From contig NZ_OY726395.1 in the NCBI RefSeq assembly GCF_963378085.1, positions 1-64,000 on the forward strand: a stretch of 64,000 bases of DNA, read 5' to 3'. The position numbers were made by a program, and so were the translations under genes. Positions 30,328 through 42,842 of the stretch are shown here, piece by piece; within the stretch, counting starts at the first letter, position 1; each line of letters starts with the position of its first letter. The notes beneath the pieces are model-generated. The model made no database searches and had not been told where the DNA came from. It saw only the letters and a program-made list of their open reading frames with translations. Origin of the DNA: Mycolicibacterium sp. MU0050 (GTDB lineage: Bacteria > Actinomycetota > Actinomycetes > Mycobacteriales > Mycobacteriaceae).

Positions 30328-31401
30328 TCACCGCAAATCTTGCCCCGTCGGCTGCACCGGACTGACCAGCCGGTTCCCACCTTGGCGTTTGGCTTCGTAC
30401 ATGGCGCGGTCGGCCCGGCGCAGCACCTCGTCGATCAGCTCGCCGCCGCCGAGTTCGCCTGCGACACAGGCGATCCCGACGCTAGCCGTGATCGTTCCGG
30501 TGACCGCTTCCATGGCGGTCCGCATCCGCTCGGTGAAACTTCCGACGCCGTCGACACTGGCCATGGCCGCCATCACCACGAACTCGTCGCCACCGAGGCG
30601 CGCAGCAACGTCCCCGGTGCGGATCGATGACCGCAACGCGTCGGCGACCGCCCGCAGCGCGTCGTCCCCGCGCTGGTGTCCGTGGTCGTCGTTGAGCTGC
30701 TTGAACCGGTCCAGATCGATGGCCGCCGCGACCAGCACCGCCTCGCGGCGTCCGCGGACGACGCGGCGCATGGACTCATACATGCCGCGCCGATTGCGCA
30801 GCCCCGTCATGGGGTCCCGCAGCGCCTGTCGTGCGGTCCGTGCCACCGCGCGCCGGCCGCCCTCGATGACCACCTGGATCACGATGGGCATGACCACCAC
30901 CGCTACCAGCGCGGGCGTCACGAACATGTAGGTGTCGAACCAGGTGCGCTCGCCGCTGGCCACCGCCTGCGCGGCCAGACCGAAGATCAACGCGCACGCC
31001 GCGGCGCAATGTGCGGCCAGCACCTTCGGACCCATCAGGAAGCTCGCGAACACCCCGACCAGGGACATGTTGATCACCGTGGTGATCCGGGCCTCCGGGC
31101 TCGACGCGGTGATCGCGGCGATCATCAGGCCGAGGTCGGCCCACGCCATGAACACGACTGCCGCGCGAAAGGAGGGCCAACGTGCCACCATCCACCAGAT
31201 TCCGACCGCGAGGGCCGACACGGCGAAGGTGAACTGGGCGATCCGGCCGATCGCCGACTGTGGTCCCAGCGGGTGCAGCAGCGTCACGCAGCCCAGCACG
31301 GCCATCGCGAAACAGAACGCCCCGACAGCGAACTTCAGGGTGCGCAGGTAACCGCTGGCCCGGATCGCCTCGGTCATGAATCGATAGCTACTGGTCGCCA
31401 T
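30328..31401 (-). CDS. Membrane diguanylate cyclase (GGDEF domain)
   Basis: Predicted to make cyclic di-GMP from two GTP. 357 aa: about six N-terminal transmembrane helices (residues 25-185), then a GGDEF domain with DPMTGLRNRRGM, DLDRFKQLNDDHGH and RLGGDEFVV. An inhibitory I-site RTGD stands exactly five residues before GGDEF, so product inhibition is expected. No EAL domain. ATG 31401 is preceded by GGGAGGCGGAG. No partner gene is adjacent; the signal sensed by the membrane region is unknown. Confidence 0.93.
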   Translation of the reverse strand: MATSSYRFMTEAIRASGYLRTLKFAVGAFCFAMAVLGCVTLLHPLGPQSAIGRIAQFTFAVSALAVGIWWMVARWPSFRAAVVFMAWADLGLMIAAITASSPEARITTVINMSLVGVFASFLMGPKVLAAHCAAACALIFGLAAQAVASGERTWFDTYMFVTPALVAVVVMPIVIQVVIEGGRRAVARTARQALRDPMTGLRNRRGMYESMRRVVRGRREAVLVAAAIDLDRFKQLNDDHGHQRGDDALRAVADALRSSIRTGDVAARLGGDEFVVMAAMASVDGVGSFTERMRTAMEAVTGTITASVGIACVAGELGGGELIDEVLRRADRAMYEAKRQGGNRLVSPVQPTGQDLR

Positions 31402-34189: not shown

Positions 34190-35440
34190 GTGAGTATCCA
34201 TTCCGAGGTTCAGCGCATCCCGCCCGCGCTGACCGGTGATCAACTGGCCGACCAGATCGCCACCGAGCTCGGCGGCTCCCTCAATCCGCGCCGCGCCGCG
34301 CTGCAACTGGTGAACCTGATCCAGCGTGACCTGGCCGACTGGGCCATGGTCGTTCTCCCGGACCGGCAGACCGGCGCGATGATGCTGGTGGGTGACGCCG
34401 CGCCGACGGGCGTCCAGGTCGGTCGGGCTTACCTGGTGGGACGCGCGCTGGACCGGGTACTGCGCGCCGGCGGCTTCGAACACATCGAGGGCACCGACCT
34501 GTCCGGTCTGGTGCCCGCCGAACCGTTCCTGCAATCGGCGGCCGAGCTGGTCCCGGCCGAGGTGGTCGGGGTCGGGCTAACGGCCCGCGGGGTCACGTTC
34601 GGCGCGTTGGTGCTGCTGCGCCGGGCCGACGCCGGGTTCACTGTGGCGGAGATCGGTTCGGCGCAGCGCGTCGCCGACCGTGCGGCGCTGGTCTTGGATT
34701 CGGCGCGGATGTATCACGAGCGCATGCACGTCGCGTCGGTGCTGCAGCAGAGTCTGCGGCCGCCGGCGCTGCCCGACATTCCCGGTTTGCGCCTGGCCGC
34801 GTGCTACCGGCCGGCCGCCGAGCACCTCGACATCGGCGGGGACTTCTACGACGTCATAGGTGGCGACGACGACTGGCTGGTTGCGTTCGGCGACGTGTGC
34901 GGCAAGGGCGTCGAGGCGGCGGCGCTGACCGGATTGGCACGCCAAAGCATTCGCACCGCAGCGCATTTCGACCGTGACCCGGCGGCCGTGTTGGGGGTGA
35001 CCAACTCGGTACTGTACAACCCCGCCTCGACGCAGTTTGTGACGGTGCTCTGTGCGCGACTGCGTCCGGACGGAACCGATGTCCAGGTGGATCTGGCCAC
35101 CGCGGGACATACGCCGCCGCTGGTGTTGCGTATCGATGGCCGCGTGGAGGAGGTCGCGGTGTATGGCACGGCCGCCGCCATCGTCGCCGAAGTCCAGTAC
35201 GGCACAACGACTTTCCGCCTTGCCCCCGGTGACACCATGCTGATGTTCACCGATGGTGTCGACGAGGCATGGGGGAGCGCAGGCCAATACGGGCTCGAGC
35301 GATTGCAAAACATGCTGCCCGCCTACGCCGGGGCGCCCCCCGAGGTGGTTTGCGAGGCCGTGGAGCAGGACGTGATGGAGTACCTCGACGGCACTGCCCA
35401 CGACGACATCGCTCTGTTGGCGGTGACGTGCGGACCGTAG
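34190..35440 (+). CDS. GAF-PP2C (SpoIIE/RsbU-type) serine phosphatase
   Basis: Predicted phosphatase acting on an anti-anti-sigma factor. 416 aa from GTG 34190 (GAGG eight bases upstream). The N-terminal GAF-like sensor spans about 1-175. The C-terminal PP2C_SIG domain shows LQQSLRPPALPDIPGLRLAACYRPA, the metal-binding DIGGDFYDV, FGDVCGKGVEAAALT, DLATAGHTPPLVL, LMFTDGVDEAW and HDDIALLAV. No sigma, RsbV or RsbW gene is adjacent. Its 3' end overlaps the cobalamin-binding gene by 13 nt, so the two are probably translated together. Confidence 0.93.
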   Translation: MSIHSEVQRIPPALTGDQLADQIATELGGSLNPRRAALQLVNLIQRDLADWAMVVLPDRQTGAMMLVGDAAPTGVQVGRAYLVGRALDRVLRAGGFEHIEGTDLSGLVPAEPFLQSAAELVPAEVVGVGLTARGVTFGALVLLRRADAGFTVAEIGSAQRVADRAALVLDSARMYHERMHVASVLQQSLRPPALPDIPGLRLAACYRPAAEHLDIGGDFYDVIGGDDDWLVAFGDVCGKGVEAAALTGLARQSIRTAAHFDRDPAAVLGVTNSVLYNPASTQFVTVLCARLRPDGTDVQVDLATAGHTPPLVLRIDGRVEEVAVYGTAAAIVAEVQYGTTTFRLAPGDTMLMFTDGVDEAWGSAGQYGLERLQNMLPAYAGAPPEVVCEAVEQDVMEYLDGTAHDDIALLAVTCGP

Positions 35441-36519
35441 CGGCGGCACCGGTGCTCCGCGAGTACGAGGCGGCGCTGGCCGCCTCCGACCGGGCCCGAG
35501 TCGTGGCGCTCGTCCAACAACTCCTCGACGACGACGTCGCGCCGGTGACGGTGCTGACCGACGTGGTGGCGGCCGCGCAGCGTGCCATCGGTCGGCGGTG
35601 GCAGAGCGGCGAATGGACCGTCGCGCAGGAGCATGCCGCGACCGCGATGTCCATGGCCGCCACCGAGGTCGTCACCCAACGCGCGGCCGACGTGCCGGTG
35701 ACCCGCGGCCACGTCCTGGTGACCTGCGCCGAGCGGGAGTGGCATTGGCTGCCCGCGGCCATCATCGGCTGCGTGCTGCGCGGCGCGGGTTGGCGGGTGA
35801 CGCCCCTGGGACCGGCGACGGCCCCGCTGCGGCTCAGCCAATACATCCAGGACGTCGGCCCCGAGGCGGTGGCCGTCAGCTGCTCGGTGTTGGGAGCGCT
35901 ACCCACCACCCGGCGATTCATCGAGGCCAGCACCTCCGCGGGGGTCCCCGTGGTGGTCGACGGGCCGGCGTTCGGCACGGACACCATCCGCGCGCAGGCC
36001 CTCGGCGCGACCGCGTGGGCACCGGACGCCGCGGGCGCATTGACGGCGATGGACACCCTGCCGGTGGTGGTCTCGGCTGTGCCGCCGCTGCCGCAGGCAC
36101 CGGCCCAGGAGCAGCGGGCACTCGAGCTGGCGCACGCGGACCTGATCGACCGGGTGGTGCGACGGTGGAGCATAACCGGCGGCGCGGCAGGGGATCCCGC
36201 GCAGACGGCCCTGCGGGCGGTGGCCCGGGACGCGGTGCCCCAAACCCTTCATGCCGTCGCGGCCGCACTGCTGACGGGGGATGTGCGGCCGGTGTCGGAG
36301 ACGGCGCAGTGGATGGGCGACCTGTTGGCGCACCGCGAGGTCGACTCCGAGGTTGCCGTGCGGGAACTCGCATCGGTGTTGGGTGCGGTGTTGGTGGACT
36401 ATCCGCTCAGTGCGGACCTGGTGGCCGAGCATTTTCGGCCGGCGCCCCAATGTCCCGACAACGTCGTAGAATTCGCTGAGCGCACCGAAACGGCCTCTCG
36501 ACGAAAGGTTCCGCGATGA
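35428..36519 (+). CDS. Cobalamin-binding protein with CarH-type photoreceptor motifs
   Basis: 363 aa. The N-terminal helical domain contains W58-x9-E68-H69, the capping signature of CarH/LitR AdoCbl photoreceptors. The following Rossmann-like B12 domain has E104-W-H106-x2-P, then exactly 41 residues to S151, and DGPAF at 178-182, fitting ExHx2G-x41-SxV-x24-28-GG with small deviations. His106 would be the lower cobalt ligand. There is no MerR DNA-binding domain; the C-terminal 150 residues look helical and are not recognised. GTG 35428 overlaps the PP2C gene and ATGA overlaps the next gene, so three genes form a tight operon. A role in light or B12 control of the phosphatase is inference. Confidence 0.8.
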   Translation: MRTVAAAPVLREYEAALAASDRARVVALVQQLLDDDVAPVTVLTDVVAAAQRAIGRRWQSGEWTVAQEHAATAMSMAATEVVTQRAADVPVTRGHVLVTCAEREWHWLPAAIIGCVLRGAGWRVTPLGPATAPLRLSQYIQDVGPEAVAVSCSVLGALPTTRRFIEASTSAGVPVVVDGPAFGTDTIRAQALGATAWAPDAAGALTAMDTLPVVVSAVPPLPQAPAQEQRALELAHADLIDRVVRRWSITGGAAGDPAQTALRAVARDAVPQTLHAVAAALLTGDVRPVSETAQWMGDLLAHREVDSEVAVRELASVLGAVLVDYPLSADLVAEHFRPAPQCPDNVVEFAERTETASRRKVPR

Positions 36520-36947
36520 GCGCACCGGACGACTGGAATACCAAGATCATCGAGGAGTTCCGCGCCAACGCCGGCCGCGTCGGCGGGAACTTCGAAGGCG
36601 CCCCAATGGTGTTGGTACATCACACCGGCCGCAAGAGCGGTAGGCAGACCGTCACACCCATGATGTACCTGCCCGACGACGACAACCCCGACACCATCTA
36701 CGTGTTCGCCTCGAAGGCCGGAGCGCCCACCAATCCCGCCTGGTACTACAACCTGACGGCCGCCGGAACCGCGCAGGTCGAGGTCGGCACCGAGACGTAC
36801 ACCGTCGCCGTCTCCGAGATCACCGGAGACGCCCGCGACCGGATCTACCGCGAACAAGCGCAGCGTTATCCCGGTTTCGCCGAGTACGAACGAAAGACTG
36901 CCGGCGTCCGCACCATCCCGGTACTCGCCCTCACGCGTTCGGCGTAG
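36516..36947 (+). CDS. Deazaflavin (F420)-dependent nitroreductase family protein
   Basis: 143-aa Ddn/FDOR-A-type split beta-barrel protein. Motifs GAPMVLVHHTGRKSGRQTVTPMMYL (F420 phosphate-binding region), ASKAGAPTNPAWYYNL and the C-terminal RTIPVLAL are characteristic. Such enzymes use reduced cofactor F420 to reduce quinones or nitro compounds. ATG overlaps the previous stop (ATGA), coupling it to the cobalamin-binding protein. Substrate unknown. Confidence 0.93.
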   Translation: MSAPDDWNTKIIEEFRANAGRVGGNFEGAPMVLVHHTGRKSGRQTVTPMMYLPDDDNPDTIYVFASKAGAPTNPAWYYNLTAAGTAQVEVGTETYTVAVSEITGDARDRIYREQAQRYPGFAEYERKTAGVRTIPVLALTRSA

Positions 36948-38090: not shown

Positions 38091-38268
38091 TTGCCGCTGC
38101 GCTGCGGCGCGAGCTGCGCGTGGTCAGGCAGGGCTGAAGGCGGCGCGGCACGCGGCGAAGAGCCCGGTGACGGCCACCCGATTCGGGCCAGGTTTCTCAC
38201 AATTCTTTAATGTGTGGGTCCCGTCCCGGGTCCGGGTCTTGTCGGTGAGTCGAACTAGTGTTCGAAGT

Positions 38269-40074
38269 ATGGGTAGGGATGCGTTCAGCGACCGGGACAC
38301 GGTGCTGACGTGTCTGGCCGAACTCGAAGCCACCCACGCCCGCCTGGAGCAGTGCTCCTTGGACGGCTTCACCGGCGAAGAACTGCTCGCCGTACTACGG
38401 CGCCGGGAGGTGCTGGCCCGCCGCGCCCCCGTGGTCGACCACCGCATCGTGGCCCGCCTGGTCGCCGACGGCAACCCCGGCGCCCTGGGCGCCACCACCG
38501 TGGCCGAGGCCCTGACCGAACACCTGCGCATCAGCCGCGGCCAAGCACGGCGCCGCGTCACCGAAGCCGCCCAACTGGGCCCGCGCACCAGCCTCACCGG
38601 CCAACCCCTACCCCCGCTGCTCCCCACCCTGGCCGCCGCCCAAGCCGCCGGACAGATCGGGCCCGAACACCTCGACATCGCCCGCAAGGCCTACGCCAAA
38701 ATCCCCGCCGCCGTGCCCGCCGACCTCCGCGCCACCGCCGAAGCCGACCTGGCCGCCATGGCCACCCGCTTCGGCCCCGCCGCCTTCGCCAAACTCGCCG
38801 AACACCTGCTGACCGTCCTGGATCCCGACGGCGACGTCACCGACCGCGACCGCCGCGCCCAACGCCGCGCCCGCCTAGGCCGCCAACGCCCCGACGGCAT
38901 GTCCACCCTGCACGCACTCATCACCCCCGAACTGCGCGCCACCCTGGAACCGATCTTCGCCAAACTCGCCGCACCGGGCATGTGCAACCCCGCCGACGAA
39001 CACCCCTGCCTGACCGGCACCCCCACCGAAACCCACATCCTCGCCGACGACCGCACCCCCGACCAACGCCACCATGACGCCCTGACCGCCATGAGCCGCG
39101 CCCTGCTGGCCTGCGGCGACCTCGGCCAACTCAACGGCCTCCCCGTCACCGTCATCGTCACCACCACCCTGGCCGAACTACACACCGCCGCCGGCGAACC
39201 CGAACCCGCCGCATCGGCGACCAACACCGCAGCGCCACAACGAAAACCGTTGACCGGCAAAGCGCTCACCGCCGGCGGCACCATACTGCCCATCAGCGAC
39301 CTGCTCCGCATGGCCAGCCACGCCTACCACTACCTGACCATCTTCGACGACACCACCGGCCGCCCCCTATGGCTCGGGCGCACCAAACGCCTGGCCACCG
39401 CCGACCAACGCATCGTCCTACACGCCCGCGACCACGGCTGCACCCGCCCCGGCTGCACCACCGCCGGCTACCACACCCAAGTCCACCACCTACGCGACTG
39501 GGCCCACGACGGCCCCACCGACATCAACAACCTCGCCCTGGCCTGCGGCCCCGACAACCGCATGGCCACCACCGAAAACTGGACCACCCAACTCAACAAC
39601 ACCGGCCGCGTCGAATGGATCCCACCCCCACCCCTAGAACGCGGCCAACCCCGCACCAACCCCTACCACTTCATCGAAGACCTCATCGACTACCACCACA
39701 CCAACACCGCACCACTGGGGAGTCCGCCCCACACCAACTCAGAGCCCAACGCAGTCAGCGGGGCCGACGACAACCTCACCGCACACAGCAGAGCCAGCGA
39801 CAACCTGACTGACGCTGACCCCGTCAACGACAACCAGGCCGGCGATGACGACGCCGCCGCTGACCCGAACCCAGGCTCGACCGACCTCGACACCCCGAAT
39901 GACCCACTGCCCGAACCCGATTACTTCTGGGACGACGGACCCCTACCCGGCGAACCCGGATACGACGAACTCCTCGAAGCCCATCACCGCGCCTACGAGA
40001 CCATGGACCTACAAGCCCTCGACCCCGACTACGAACACCTCCCCTGGGTATACCTGACCTCCCAGAAGCCATAG
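38269..40074 (+). CDS. DUF222/HNH endonuclease family protein (13E12-repeat type)
   Basis: 601 aa. The N-terminal DUF222 domain (about 10-330) is followed by an HNH endonuclease core: HARDHGCTRPGCTTAGYHTQVHHLRDWAHDGPTDINNLALACGPDN, with zinc-binding cysteines and HNH histidines/asparagine. The C-terminus is acidic and low in complexity. These multicopy genes (REP13E12-like) are typical of mycobacteria and often serve as mobile-element targets; their natural function is unclear. Codon use is unusually C-rich, unlike its neighbours. ATG 38269 lies 7 nt after TAGTGT, a possible -10 for a leaderless transcript. Confidence 0.9.
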   Translation: MGRDAFSDRDTVLTCLAELEATHARLEQCSLDGFTGEELLAVLRRREVLARRAPVVDHRIVARLVADGNPGALGATTVAEALTEHLRISRGQARRRVTEAAQLGPRTSLTGQPLPPLLPTLAAAQAAGQIGPEHLDIARKAYAKIPAAVPADLRATAEADLAAMATRFGPAAFAKLAEHLLTVLDPDGDVTDRDRRAQRRARLGRQRPDGMSTLHALITPELRATLEPIFAKLAAPGMCNPADEHPCLTGTPTETHILADDRTPDQRHHDALTAMSRALLACGDLGQLNGLPVTVIVTTTLAELHTAAGEPEPAASATNTAAPQRKPLTGKALTAGGTILPISDLLRMASHAYHYLTIFDDTTGRPLWLGRTKRLATADQRIVLHARDHGCTRPGCTTAGYHTQVHHLRDWAHDGPTDINNLALACGPDNRMATTENWTTQLNNTGRVEWIPPPPLERGQPRTNPYHFIEDLIDYHHTNTAPLGSPPHTNSEPNAVSGADDNLTAHSRASDNLTDADPVNDNQAGDDDAAADPNPGSTDLDTPNDPLPEPDYFWDDGPLPGEPGYDELLEAHHRAYETMDLQALDPDYEHLPWVYLTSQKP

Positions 40075-40575: not shown

Positions 40576-42675
40576 TCACCACCAACCGGTGGCCTCCGAA
40601 AGTTGCCGAGCCATCTCGTCGGCCAAGGTATTGACGTAGGTCGACGTCAGGTGGTGGGCGTCGTGGTAGACCAGCACATTGCCCTCGACCGCGCGGCAGA
40701 CATCGGGACCGCACACGGCGTCGCTGAGATCGAGCGGCGCGATGTTCGGATAGCGGTCCAGGTAATCCAGCGTGGGGTTGTAGTCCCCAAGGGCCTGCGA
40801 GCGCGGCAGGCCGCAGCCTTCCGGATCGCCACCCTCCGCCAGGCAATCGACCGGTGAGAACACCATGCCGTCCCGGTACATCCAGGGCGTGTCGCGGATC
40901 CCCAGGATCGAAATGTCATGGGCGGCCAACGTATCCCAGATGCCCAGATAGTTTTCGGGCACAAAGTCACCCGGCGCGGTGGGGCGCGGTCGCGTCGTCG
41001 TCATGAACACGAAGTCGGGCCGGTCCTCCACCAGGCTGGCCATCGTCGTGTCGGTCCATTCGCGACACCCCGGGTAGGGGTTGTTCGACACGCTCACCCG
41101 CGGCACCTCGTCGGTGTTGAGCGGGCACCCCATCTTCAGATAGGTCACGACCTTGAACCCGTGCCGCTGTCCGAGTCGATTCAGCGCGGGGAGCCAGTGT
41201 TCGGAGTGTGACCCGCCGGCGACGGCGATGGTGCGCGATGCCCGTGGATCTCCGTAAGTGCATTTGATCAGGGCCGCGTTCCCGAAGTCGCTGATGCATT
41301 CGTCGACAATCGAGGCCGGCAGATCGTCCGAGGCCTCCAGCACGGACGGGCGCACCGGCAACTTGGGCACCGGCACGCCGTCGAGTAGTGCGCGCGCCCC
41401 CGGATAATCCGCCGCCGAAAGTTTCAGCAGATCAGCACCATTGGCGCGAATGGTGTTCGTGTACTGCCGCCACCCGGCCGAACCGAGGGCAACCACGATG
41501 GCGACCGTTAGCAACACACTGGTCCACACCAACGACATCGTCGGCGCGTGACCGTGCCGGGCGCGGTTGGGCGCCGCGCGCAGGGAGCGCTCGACGAGTC
41601 GCTGCGTGAGAAACGCCAGTGCCACGGCCACAACGACCACCACGATCCCGTCGCTGAGCCCCGCGCGATCCTCGTCGGAATGGGTGAGCCAGAAGATCAG
41701 CACCGGCCAGTGCCACAGATAGAGCGCGTAGGCCATGGTCCCCAGCGAAAGCAGCGGGACCGATTGTAGGACCCGACTCGGCCACGGGAGGCGCTCCGCG
41801 TCAAGAAGATTCGCCGCGCCGAGAACGATCAGGACCGTCCCGACGACGGGGATCGCCGCCAGCGGACCCGGGTACTGTTCGGCGCCGTCGACGAAGAATC
41901 CGACAGCAACGATCGCCGTGAGACCCACGGCACCCGCGGCGGCGCGCAACCAGCGGGGCCAGTTCACCCGCAGCGCAACCGCCGCGGCGAGCACGCCCGC
42001 CAACGGCTCCCAGGCGCGCGCAAAGCTGTCATAGAACGCCGTGGCCTGATCGGTCCGGTGGCTGGCGACGGCATAAACGAAAGACGCCACCGCCGCCAGG
42101 GCGACCACGGCCACGAACACGGCCCGCCGGCGGCGTCGGGGCGCCACGACGGCGATCAACCCGGCGACCACCAGGCCGGCGAGGAAGAATTGCCCCAACA
42201 CCGAGATGGCCCATAGGTGTTGCAGCGGGCTGACCGCTTCCCCAGCCGGCGCATACGCTCCCGCCGAGTTGACCAGCTGCCAGTTCTGGTAGAAGGCGAA
42301 CGTCGAAAGGCTGTGATCGGCAAACGTTTCCCACCGCGTTCGCGGCTGCAAGAGCAGCGTCGCCACACCGCTGGCCGCAACAACCACCACCAGCGCGGGC
42401 AACAAGCGGCGCGCCGACCACGAGAACTCGCTGCGCAGAGCGTCAAAGGAGTAGCCGGCGGTGAAGCCCTCAAGGAGGCGGCGGCCGCAGTAGAACCCGA
42501 AGAGGACCAGCAGCACATCGAGGCCGGCCGAGGCCGACCCGGCCCACACATGGAACAGGACCACGAGCGCAACCGCCAGGCCTCGCAGCCCACTCAGGTC
42601 GTCCCGCACCGTCGGTGCCGTGCGCGGGACCGCGGACGGCAACGGCCGTTCGGTCAGCACAGTCAACACGGTCAC
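40576..42675 (-). CDS. OafA-like acyltransferase with C-terminal SGNH domain
   Basis: About 699 aa. The N-terminal acyltransferase-3 domain has many transmembrane helices (LSGLRGLAVALVVLFHVWAGS start; LLPALVVVVAASG; PLQHLWAISVLGQFFLAG with the conserved WAISVLGQFF). The C-terminal extracytoplasmic SGNH hydrolase domain has the catalytic Ser in AGGSHSEHWLPAL and Asp/His in YHDAHHLTSTY. Such proteins acetylate or acylate cell-envelope sugars. GTG 42675 was chosen because the longer frame to 42840 adds only a basic, unconserved stretch; start uncertain. The acceptor is unknown. Confidence 0.88.
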   Translation of the reverse strand: MTVLTVLTERPLPSAVPRTAPTVRDDLSGLRGLAVALVVLFHVWAGSASAGLDVLLVLFGFYCGRRLLEGFTAGYSFDALRSEFSWSARRLLPALVVVVAASGVATLLLQPRTRWETFADHSLSTFAFYQNWQLVNSAGAYAPAGEAVSPLQHLWAISVLGQFFLAGLVVAGLIAVVAPRRRRRAVFVAVVALAAVASFVYAVASHRTDQATAFYDSFARAWEPLAGVLAAAVALRVNWPRWLRAAAGAVGLTAIVAVGFFVDGAEQYPGPLAAIPVVGTVLIVLGAANLLDAERLPWPSRVLQSVPLLSLGTMAYALYLWHWPVLIFWLTHSDEDRAGLSDGIVVVVVAVALAFLTQRLVERSLRAAPNRARHGHAPTMSLVWTSVLLTVAIVVALGSAGWRQYTNTIRANGADLLKLSAADYPGARALLDGVPVPKLPVRPSVLEASDDLPASIVDECISDFGNAALIKCTYGDPRASRTIAVAGGSHSEHWLPALNRLGQRHGFKVVTYLKMGCPLNTDEVPRVSVSNNPYPGCREWTDTTMASLVEDRPDFVFMTTTRPRPTAPGDFVPENYLGIWDTLAAHDISILGIRDTPWMYRDGMVFSPVDCLAEGGDPEGCGLPRSQALGDYNPTLDYLDRYPNIAPLDLSDAVCGPDVCRAVEGNVLVYHDAHHLTSTYVNTLADEMARQLSEATGWW

Positions 42676-42842
42676 TATCCAAGATCGGGGATGTCGAATT
42701 CCGTCCCGCAGCTTAACGGCGGCAGGTCCTGGGGCTAAACCCGCAGGACTGCGCCGCGCGCGACGCCCCACGGGCCGGCGAAATCCGGTTTGCCGCCGCC
42801 CGCCCCGAGCGACGCGCACGGCGCGGGCGCCGCCATCCATAC

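Follow-up and report, generated by a model that had tools for sequence, protein, structure and literature searches.

What does a free-standing B12 photoreceptor-like protein control when its gene begins inside the end of a phosphatase gene? The question arises from a locus of Mycolicibacterium sp. MU0050, whose genome comprises 5.22 Mb in 2 contigs; the window, i.e. the whole stretch of 64 kb that we analysed, is the beginning of the larger contig. An earlier note on this DNA had described a GAF-PP2C (RsbU-like) phosphatase translationally coupled to a CarH-type B12 protein, and had proposed that light or cobalamin status acts through the phosphatase on a partner-switching stress pathway. The two reading frames are open at the coordinates reported there, and the features of the locus are the following.

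34190..35440, plus strand: gene of a PP2C (SpoIIE/RsbU-type) phosphatase with a GAF-like N-terminus and a putative GTG start.
34235..34639, plus strand: GAF-like N-terminal part of the phosphatase, residues 16-150, alpha/beta in the structure model, with PF01590 detected in relatives.
34643..34756, plus strand: long helix joining the GAF-like and PP2C parts, residues 152-189, seen in the model.
35428..35440, plus strand: 13 bp shared by the end of the phosphatase gene and the beginning of the photocobilin gene, read from the sequence (predicted translational coupling).
35428..36519, plus strand: gene of a photocobilin-like B12 protein of 363 aa with a GTG start.
35455..35670, plus strand: helical B12-capping domain PF02607 with W58, E68 and H69 (Pfam, residue invariance).
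35707..36030, plus strand: B12-binding domain PF02310 with Ser151 and with H106, which corresponds to the lower cobalt ligand (Pfam, alignment).
36094..36432, plus strand: C-terminal globin-like domain, residues 223-335 (model helices, fold alignment, residue counts).
36516..36947, plus strand: gene of the F420H2-dependent reductase family, ATGA-coupled to the photocobilin gene (PF04075, 92.5 bits).

The layout agrees with the earlier description. The GTG of the photocobilin gene lies at 35428 and the TAG stop of the phosphatase gene ends at 35440, so that 13 bp are shared, and the ATGA overlap with the reductase gene occupies 36516-36519. Promoter and terminator scans around the gene pair found none, no exact match to the SigF-type promoter GTTT-N14-18-GGGTA (spacings of 14-18) occurs in the 64-kb window, and the Rfam scan of the window returned only tRNAs. 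About 2.8 kb upstream of the pair there is a gene for a GGDEF diguanylate cyclase (30328-31401, minus strand); elsewhere, a GGDEF domain is fused to a photocobilin.

All the motifs previously listed for the B12 protein were found, namely W58-x9-E68-H69, the ExHx2P motif in the form E104-W-H106-W-L-P109, Ser151 at a distance of 41 residues from P109, and D178-GPAF. Both B12 domains exceed their Pfam cut-offs (PF02607 with 55.4 bits against 23, PF02310 with 47.8 bits against 32.1) and the structure model contains the helical cap as well as the Rossmann domain, which bears out the B12 photoreceptor-like fold. The protein was also said to be devoid of a DNA-binding domain, and Pfam detected none at E <= 0.1, MerR-type included. 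W58, E68, H69 and H106 are invariant in 121/121 close homologues, the window protein counted in, and in 79/79 proteins from the named loci, which are the best 80 out of the 446 relatives found (L070 and L072, being truncated, do not enter this residue count), so the motif is no chance match. The equivalent residues of SasPcob, a photocobilin of Saccharothrix syringae, contact the adenosyl group or the cobalt (PMC10979010). By analogy, AdoCbl binding and a light response are predicted for the window protein, and the genome encodes an AdoCbl synthase (204.8 bits).

The assignment to the CarH type, on the other hand, had to be abandoned. The best full-length matches of the protein in both sequence and fold searches are photocobilins, its closest named homologues come from mycobacteria, and the helices of the model together with a fold alignment reaching residue 345 reveal a C-terminal globin (photoglobin) domain that had been overlooked. 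The NCBIfam CarH model scored 46.7 bits against a cut-off of 400, and CarH-like structures match only the B12 part: the alignments with CarH/LitR and with a MerR-family protein of Chloracidobacterium (PDB 8jbs, 8jbt) extend to about residue 212 and do not cover the globin. CarH/LitR proteins, moreover, carry the MerR DNA-binding domain which the window protein lacks. Judged by its sequence and predicted structure, the protein resembles photocobilins, globin domain included, and is not of the CarH type. Some sources name it instead as an MtbC/MtaC-like corrinoid carrier for a methyltransferase, and the NCBIfam models MtgC, MtbC and MtaC do match weakly, far below their cut-offs; we find such a role highly improbable, since the full-length matches are to photocobilins and since a globin domain, a W-x9-EH cap and a conserved adjacent PP2C gene are out of keeping with a carrier.

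The fold matches also include the B12-domain proteins SCHIC and AerR. Proteins of this type have redox-linked roles, and an identical pocket would serve a sensor of cobalamin status (AdoCbl level or type) or of redox, for which photolysis would be a side property. We regard this as rather unlikely, given the invariance of the residues contacting the adenosyl group and the cobalt (79/79) and the light responses of the relatives SasPcob and AbDPcob (PMC10979010).

The association with the phosphatase, on which the earlier proposal was built, turned out to be conserved. In the genus, 89 of 297 genomes contained a photocobilin match at E <= 1e-20. Clade A accounts for 47 matches in 46 genomes at 53-100% identity (one gene of genome G292 was matched in two pieces) and clade B, a paralogue which as a rule has its own PP2C, for 56 matches in 56 genomes at 29-41% identity; 13 genomes have both. 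A PP2C gene on the same strand, with the matched stretches less than 500 bp apart, adjoins 47/47 clade A and 55/56 clade B matches. The exception is on contig 23 of genome G010, and a PP2C of the same class sits on another contig of that genome. Four genus genomes have a PP2C of the pair's class with no photocobilin among the matches listed. These pairing counts are lower bounds, because only the best candidates (up to 6 per genome) and the best 106 PP2C matches entered.

Among the named loci, PP2C lies upstream on the same strand in 78 of 80, and in the other two the contig begins within 232 bp of the match. In 65 of the 78 loci holding both genes, the photocobilin has a candidate start that either overlaps the stop of PP2C or directly adjoins it. 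One locus of Microbispora (L087:3155-5523) has two tandem photocobilin genes behind a single PP2C, the second photocobilin intervening. We also surveyed the phylum, where a search at E <= 1e-25 gave matches in 61 of 396 genomes, and took the loci of 30. Photocobilins of the window's own class were accompanied by PP2C in 11/11 cases and by a STAS ORF in 7/11 (6 of these 11 are new, the others being the window locus and four genomes already sampled within the genus), whereas full-length photocobilins of other classes had PP2C in 0/11, within flanks of up to 1.5 kb, one locus having no more than about 0.6 kb on the upstream side. The pairing thus characterises the class and is not general to B12 photoreceptors. 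In eight loci the match was chiefly to the B12 part; one of these had a PP2C, located downstream, and two had a separate globin match. At L148 and L150 the order of the window protein is inverted, a globin-like match preceding the B12 part on its 5′ side.

The co-occurrence points to a functional link rather than to direct contact, which for photocobilin and PP2C is proposed by analogy. The F420 reductase was dropped as a member of the unit, as a phmmer search (E <= 1e-4) found a homologue in just 1 of 99 other loci (L006-L104), namely L041, where it is upstream on the minus strand. The DUF7373 lipoprotein gene upstream of the pair had no homologue in the loci searched at the same threshold.

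The bilin region of the globin domain was more difficult to interpret. In SasPcob (PDB 8j2w, 8j2x), Asp270 touches three rings of biliverdin, the remaining ring is contacted by Trp296, and a propionate by His137 from the partner monomer (PMC10979010). The window protein has A269 and R135 at the positions of this Asp and His, and unlike SasPcob it carries H275 and W247, which are typical of its subfamily. HMMER aligned D268 to Asp270 through a gap, but D268 was rejected as a retained biliverdin Asp, since the MAFFT alignment of the two proteins is gap-free from the Asp270 position to W295 and, counted back from W295, gives A269. No Asp was found at position 269 in 121/121 close homologues.

From the named loci we delimited a subfamily of 49 members, consisting of the window-like group (46) and three Dactylosporangium sisters. 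Position 269 is A, V, T or I in 49/49 members, as opposed to Asp in 28/30 of the remaining proteins from the named loci, and Asp is also present in 9/11 from other classes. Position 275 is H or Y in the subfamily (49/49) and D or E in the others (30/30), position 247 is W (49/49) versus L or V (30/30), and position 135 is R or K in 46/46 of the window-like group, Q in the three Dactylosporangium proteins and mostly H in the others (25/30). Both W295 (49/49 and 29/30) and R303 (49/49 and 28/30) are kept. A quick tree, midpoint-rooted, with long branches flagged and used for grouping only, placed the 49 members and P0001 on one branch with an SH-aLRT of 100. Because the bilin-region residues are changed, biliverdin binding by the subfamily is uncertain on sequence grounds. 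The Asp is not a defining feature of photocobilins, since AbPcob, the founding one, has His in its place and binds biliverdin weakly (PMC10979010). AbDPcob, whose photoreceptor part (PDB 8j2y) shares the fold of the window protein, also lacks the Asp; it has His there and weak biliverdin binding, and is still light-activated (PMC10979010).

Heme oxygenase was considered as a marker of biliverdin use and rejected, as the distribution of the gene departs from that of the subfamily. The canonical gene (PF01126) is patchy in the genus (100/297 genomes). It is present in 6/46 clade A genomes of the genus, one of them weak, against 94/251 of the others (Fisher p 0.001, ignoring kinship), and in 18/56 clade B genomes against 82/241 (p 0.88). 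Our own genome nevertheless has it (contig 1:1726693-1727286), as do 12/14 clade A genomes of other genera (one weak); Dactylosporangium has it in 0/3 and the canonical-group genomes in 18/26 (one weak). By its altered bilin region the subfamily stands apart, with a second chromophore to be examined.

Regarding the phosphatase, Pfam identified the SpoIIE domain PF07228 with 138 bits, and five Asp residues of the PP2C, which we take to be metal-binding, are invariant in 44/44 aligned sequences. The PP2C half of the GAF-PP2C label therefore stands. The GAF half holds for relatives, with PF01590 detected in 33 of the 44 aligned sequences, and not for the window protein itself, in which Pfam detected no GAF. 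The model consists of an N-terminal alpha/beta part, a helix at residues 152-189 and the PP2C domain, which is closest to that of Rv1364c among the fold matches listed; most of these begin around residue 188. RsbU of Bacillus subtilis and mycobacterial SigF switching likewise feature a PP2C of the SpoIIE/RsbU type that has a regulatory N-terminus and a helical linker. RsbU is regulated by the kinase RsbT, whereas the regulator here would be the photoreceptor encoded together with the phosphatase. The predicted substrate is a STAS anti-anti-sigma factor, in line with the STAS ORFs near the pair in relatives.

Such neighbours were searched for with HMMs built here over the 80 named loci, with flanks of up to 4.5 kb, some shorter. 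A STAS ORF was found near the pair in 61/80 loci, an RsbW-like ATPase in 30/80 and either of them in 62/80; the 18/80 with neither include some truncated loci. In 32/80 the STAS ORF is <= 600 bp downstream of the photocobilin. Pfam confirmed the examples (STAS 4/4, RsbW 2/2). In 36 hand-picked genomes of these loci, 758 Pfam STAS hits in 273.8 Mb correspond to 2.8 per Mb, from which about 2 of 80 loci would be expected, or 4 by the densest genome, though the loci are not independent and the detectors differ (own HMM and Pfam). A first clustering of neighbours, based on a crude gene caller with antisense ORFs, was used solely for the STAS lead. Nine of the 80 loci, eight from Actinokineospora and one from Amycolatopsis antarctica, also contain a SigF-family sigma factor, in the order anti-sigma, sigma, STAS, RsbW, PP2C, photocobilin, STAS. 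For L049 and L057, both Pfam and NCBIfam bore out the sigma factor; for L049, Pfam also bore out the anti-sigma gene.

In the mycobacterial loci L029, L031, L036, L040, L042 and L045 a long frame with an RsbW-like end lies downstream of the photocobilin and is followed by a STAS ORF; the frame of L029 (5530-9675) has 1381 residues with GAF, HisKA, HATPase, response-regulator, PAS, SpoIIE and RsbW-like domains. The closest named relatives of the window (L025-L028) have no STAS or RsbW match in their flanks. The window locus has no STAS, RsbW-like or SigF-family gene beside the pair either, and the nearest STAS match is at 1.007 Mb, so the target of the phosphatase would have to act in trans. 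The proposed partner-switching link hence survives in part: it is likely for the photocobilin-PP2C pair, given the STAS, RsbW-like and SigF genes in many relatives, and the window locus itself is without such neighbours.

We consider it fairly probable that the photocobilin senses light and controls the co-translated PP2C, the two genes forming one module, and the gene pair is probably a light-controlled stress switch. The standalone photocobilin would be the light sensor of the phosphatase translated with it. In the dark, AdoCbl held between the W58/E68/H69 cap and H106 would keep it dimeric; in the light, the Co-C bond would break, adenosine would depart and the dimer interface would be altered. 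The altered photocobilin might then bind to the PP2C, or let go of it, at the GAF-like part and the helical linker, in a manner similar to that of free RsbT on RsbU. This would raise or lower the activity of PP2C on a phosphorylated STAS anti-anti-sigma factor, and by shifting an RsbW-type anti-sigma factor would release a sigma factor of the SigF type that serves stress and pigment genes.

According to PMC12143880, RsbU becomes active when RsbT orders the RsbU linkers into a coiled coil, and linkers of this kind are argued to be general. Light turns SasPcob monomeric, and photocobilins modulate a diguanylate cyclase supplied in trans (PMC10979010); in AbDPcob the output is a fused diguanylate cyclase, as opposed to the separate co-translated phosphatase of the window. 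The sign of the effect and the dimer-monomer step are not transferable, because the window protein is without the biliverdin Asp, SasPcob without biliverdin shows a reversed effect on the cyclase (activating in the dark, inhibiting in the light) and AbDPcob remains dimeric in light (PMC10979010). In M. smegmatis SigF controls carotenoids and thereby peroxide resistance (PMC4694148), and further inputs to SigF are reported (PMC10950880), which makes a light input to SigF plausible.

The genome has its own sigF (485.7 bits, contig 1 at about 3.607 Mb), overlapping an RsbW-like gene by 4 bp, and a STAS-RsbW pair at about 4.729 Mb. By analogy, sigma-F has roughly an even chance of being the final target in this organism. 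The 8 STAS and 13 HATPase_c_2 hits spread along the chromosome would equally suit a light-PP2C module of the same kind directed at a STAS protein of some other pathway, and a sigma factor adjoins the pair in only 9/80 named loci; the clusters with STAS, RsbW-like and SigF-family genes in Actinokineospora and Amycolatopsis antarctica nonetheless make us hold this alternative target for possible at best. It differs from the preferred light-switch reading in the last step only, and our confidences in the two therefore overlap.

The light-switch reading could be taken further. With Ala or Val in place of Asp270, His275 in place of an acidic residue, Trp247 in place of Leu and Arg135 in place of His137, the globin pocket of the mycobacterial subfamily might have been remodelled for a ligand other than biliverdin, e.g. 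a product of heme breakdown in mycobacteria, and the protein might work by itself, in the manner of RsbT, as a light switch on a PP2C that determines how active sigma-F is. We hold this extension to be quite doubtful; if true, light would reach the general stress response of mycobacteria by way of B12.

To our knowledge, light sensing in non-phototrophic actinobacteria, pigment-forming mycobacteria included, is largely open. The photocobilin family itself is already known, and its discoverers counted STAS, SpoIIE and PP2C proteins among the partners that SasPcob might have and called the function of standalone photocobilins "less clear" (PMC10979010). The conserved overlapping phosphatase gene provides a concrete candidate output for them, and with STAS, RsbW and SigF near the pair in relatives the light-stress idea can be reduced to a reconstitution with few proteins. 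The available portions of the main texts of the photocobilin (PMC10979010) and SignatureFinder papers contain no word starting with "mycobacter", and those of the M. kansasii light-transcriptome paper (PMC9861118) contain no "photoreceptor", "B12", "cobalamin" or "CarH". Judged by titles and abstract openings, with subscription papers mostly outside the scope, only PMC10979010 was directly relevant to a B12-PP2C-STAS link. As far as literature listings show, the mycobacterial photocobilins, the class-wide coupling to PP2C with its negative in other classes, the STAS/RsbW/SigF clusters and the changed-bilin subfamily are new; an earlier photoglobin paper may already show part of the PP2C neighbourhood.

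Two other genes of the window encode multidomain proteins: a protein with DUF222 and HNH endonuclease domains (38167-40074, plus strand) and an SGNH domain fused to an Acyltransferase-3 protein (40576-42840, minus strand).
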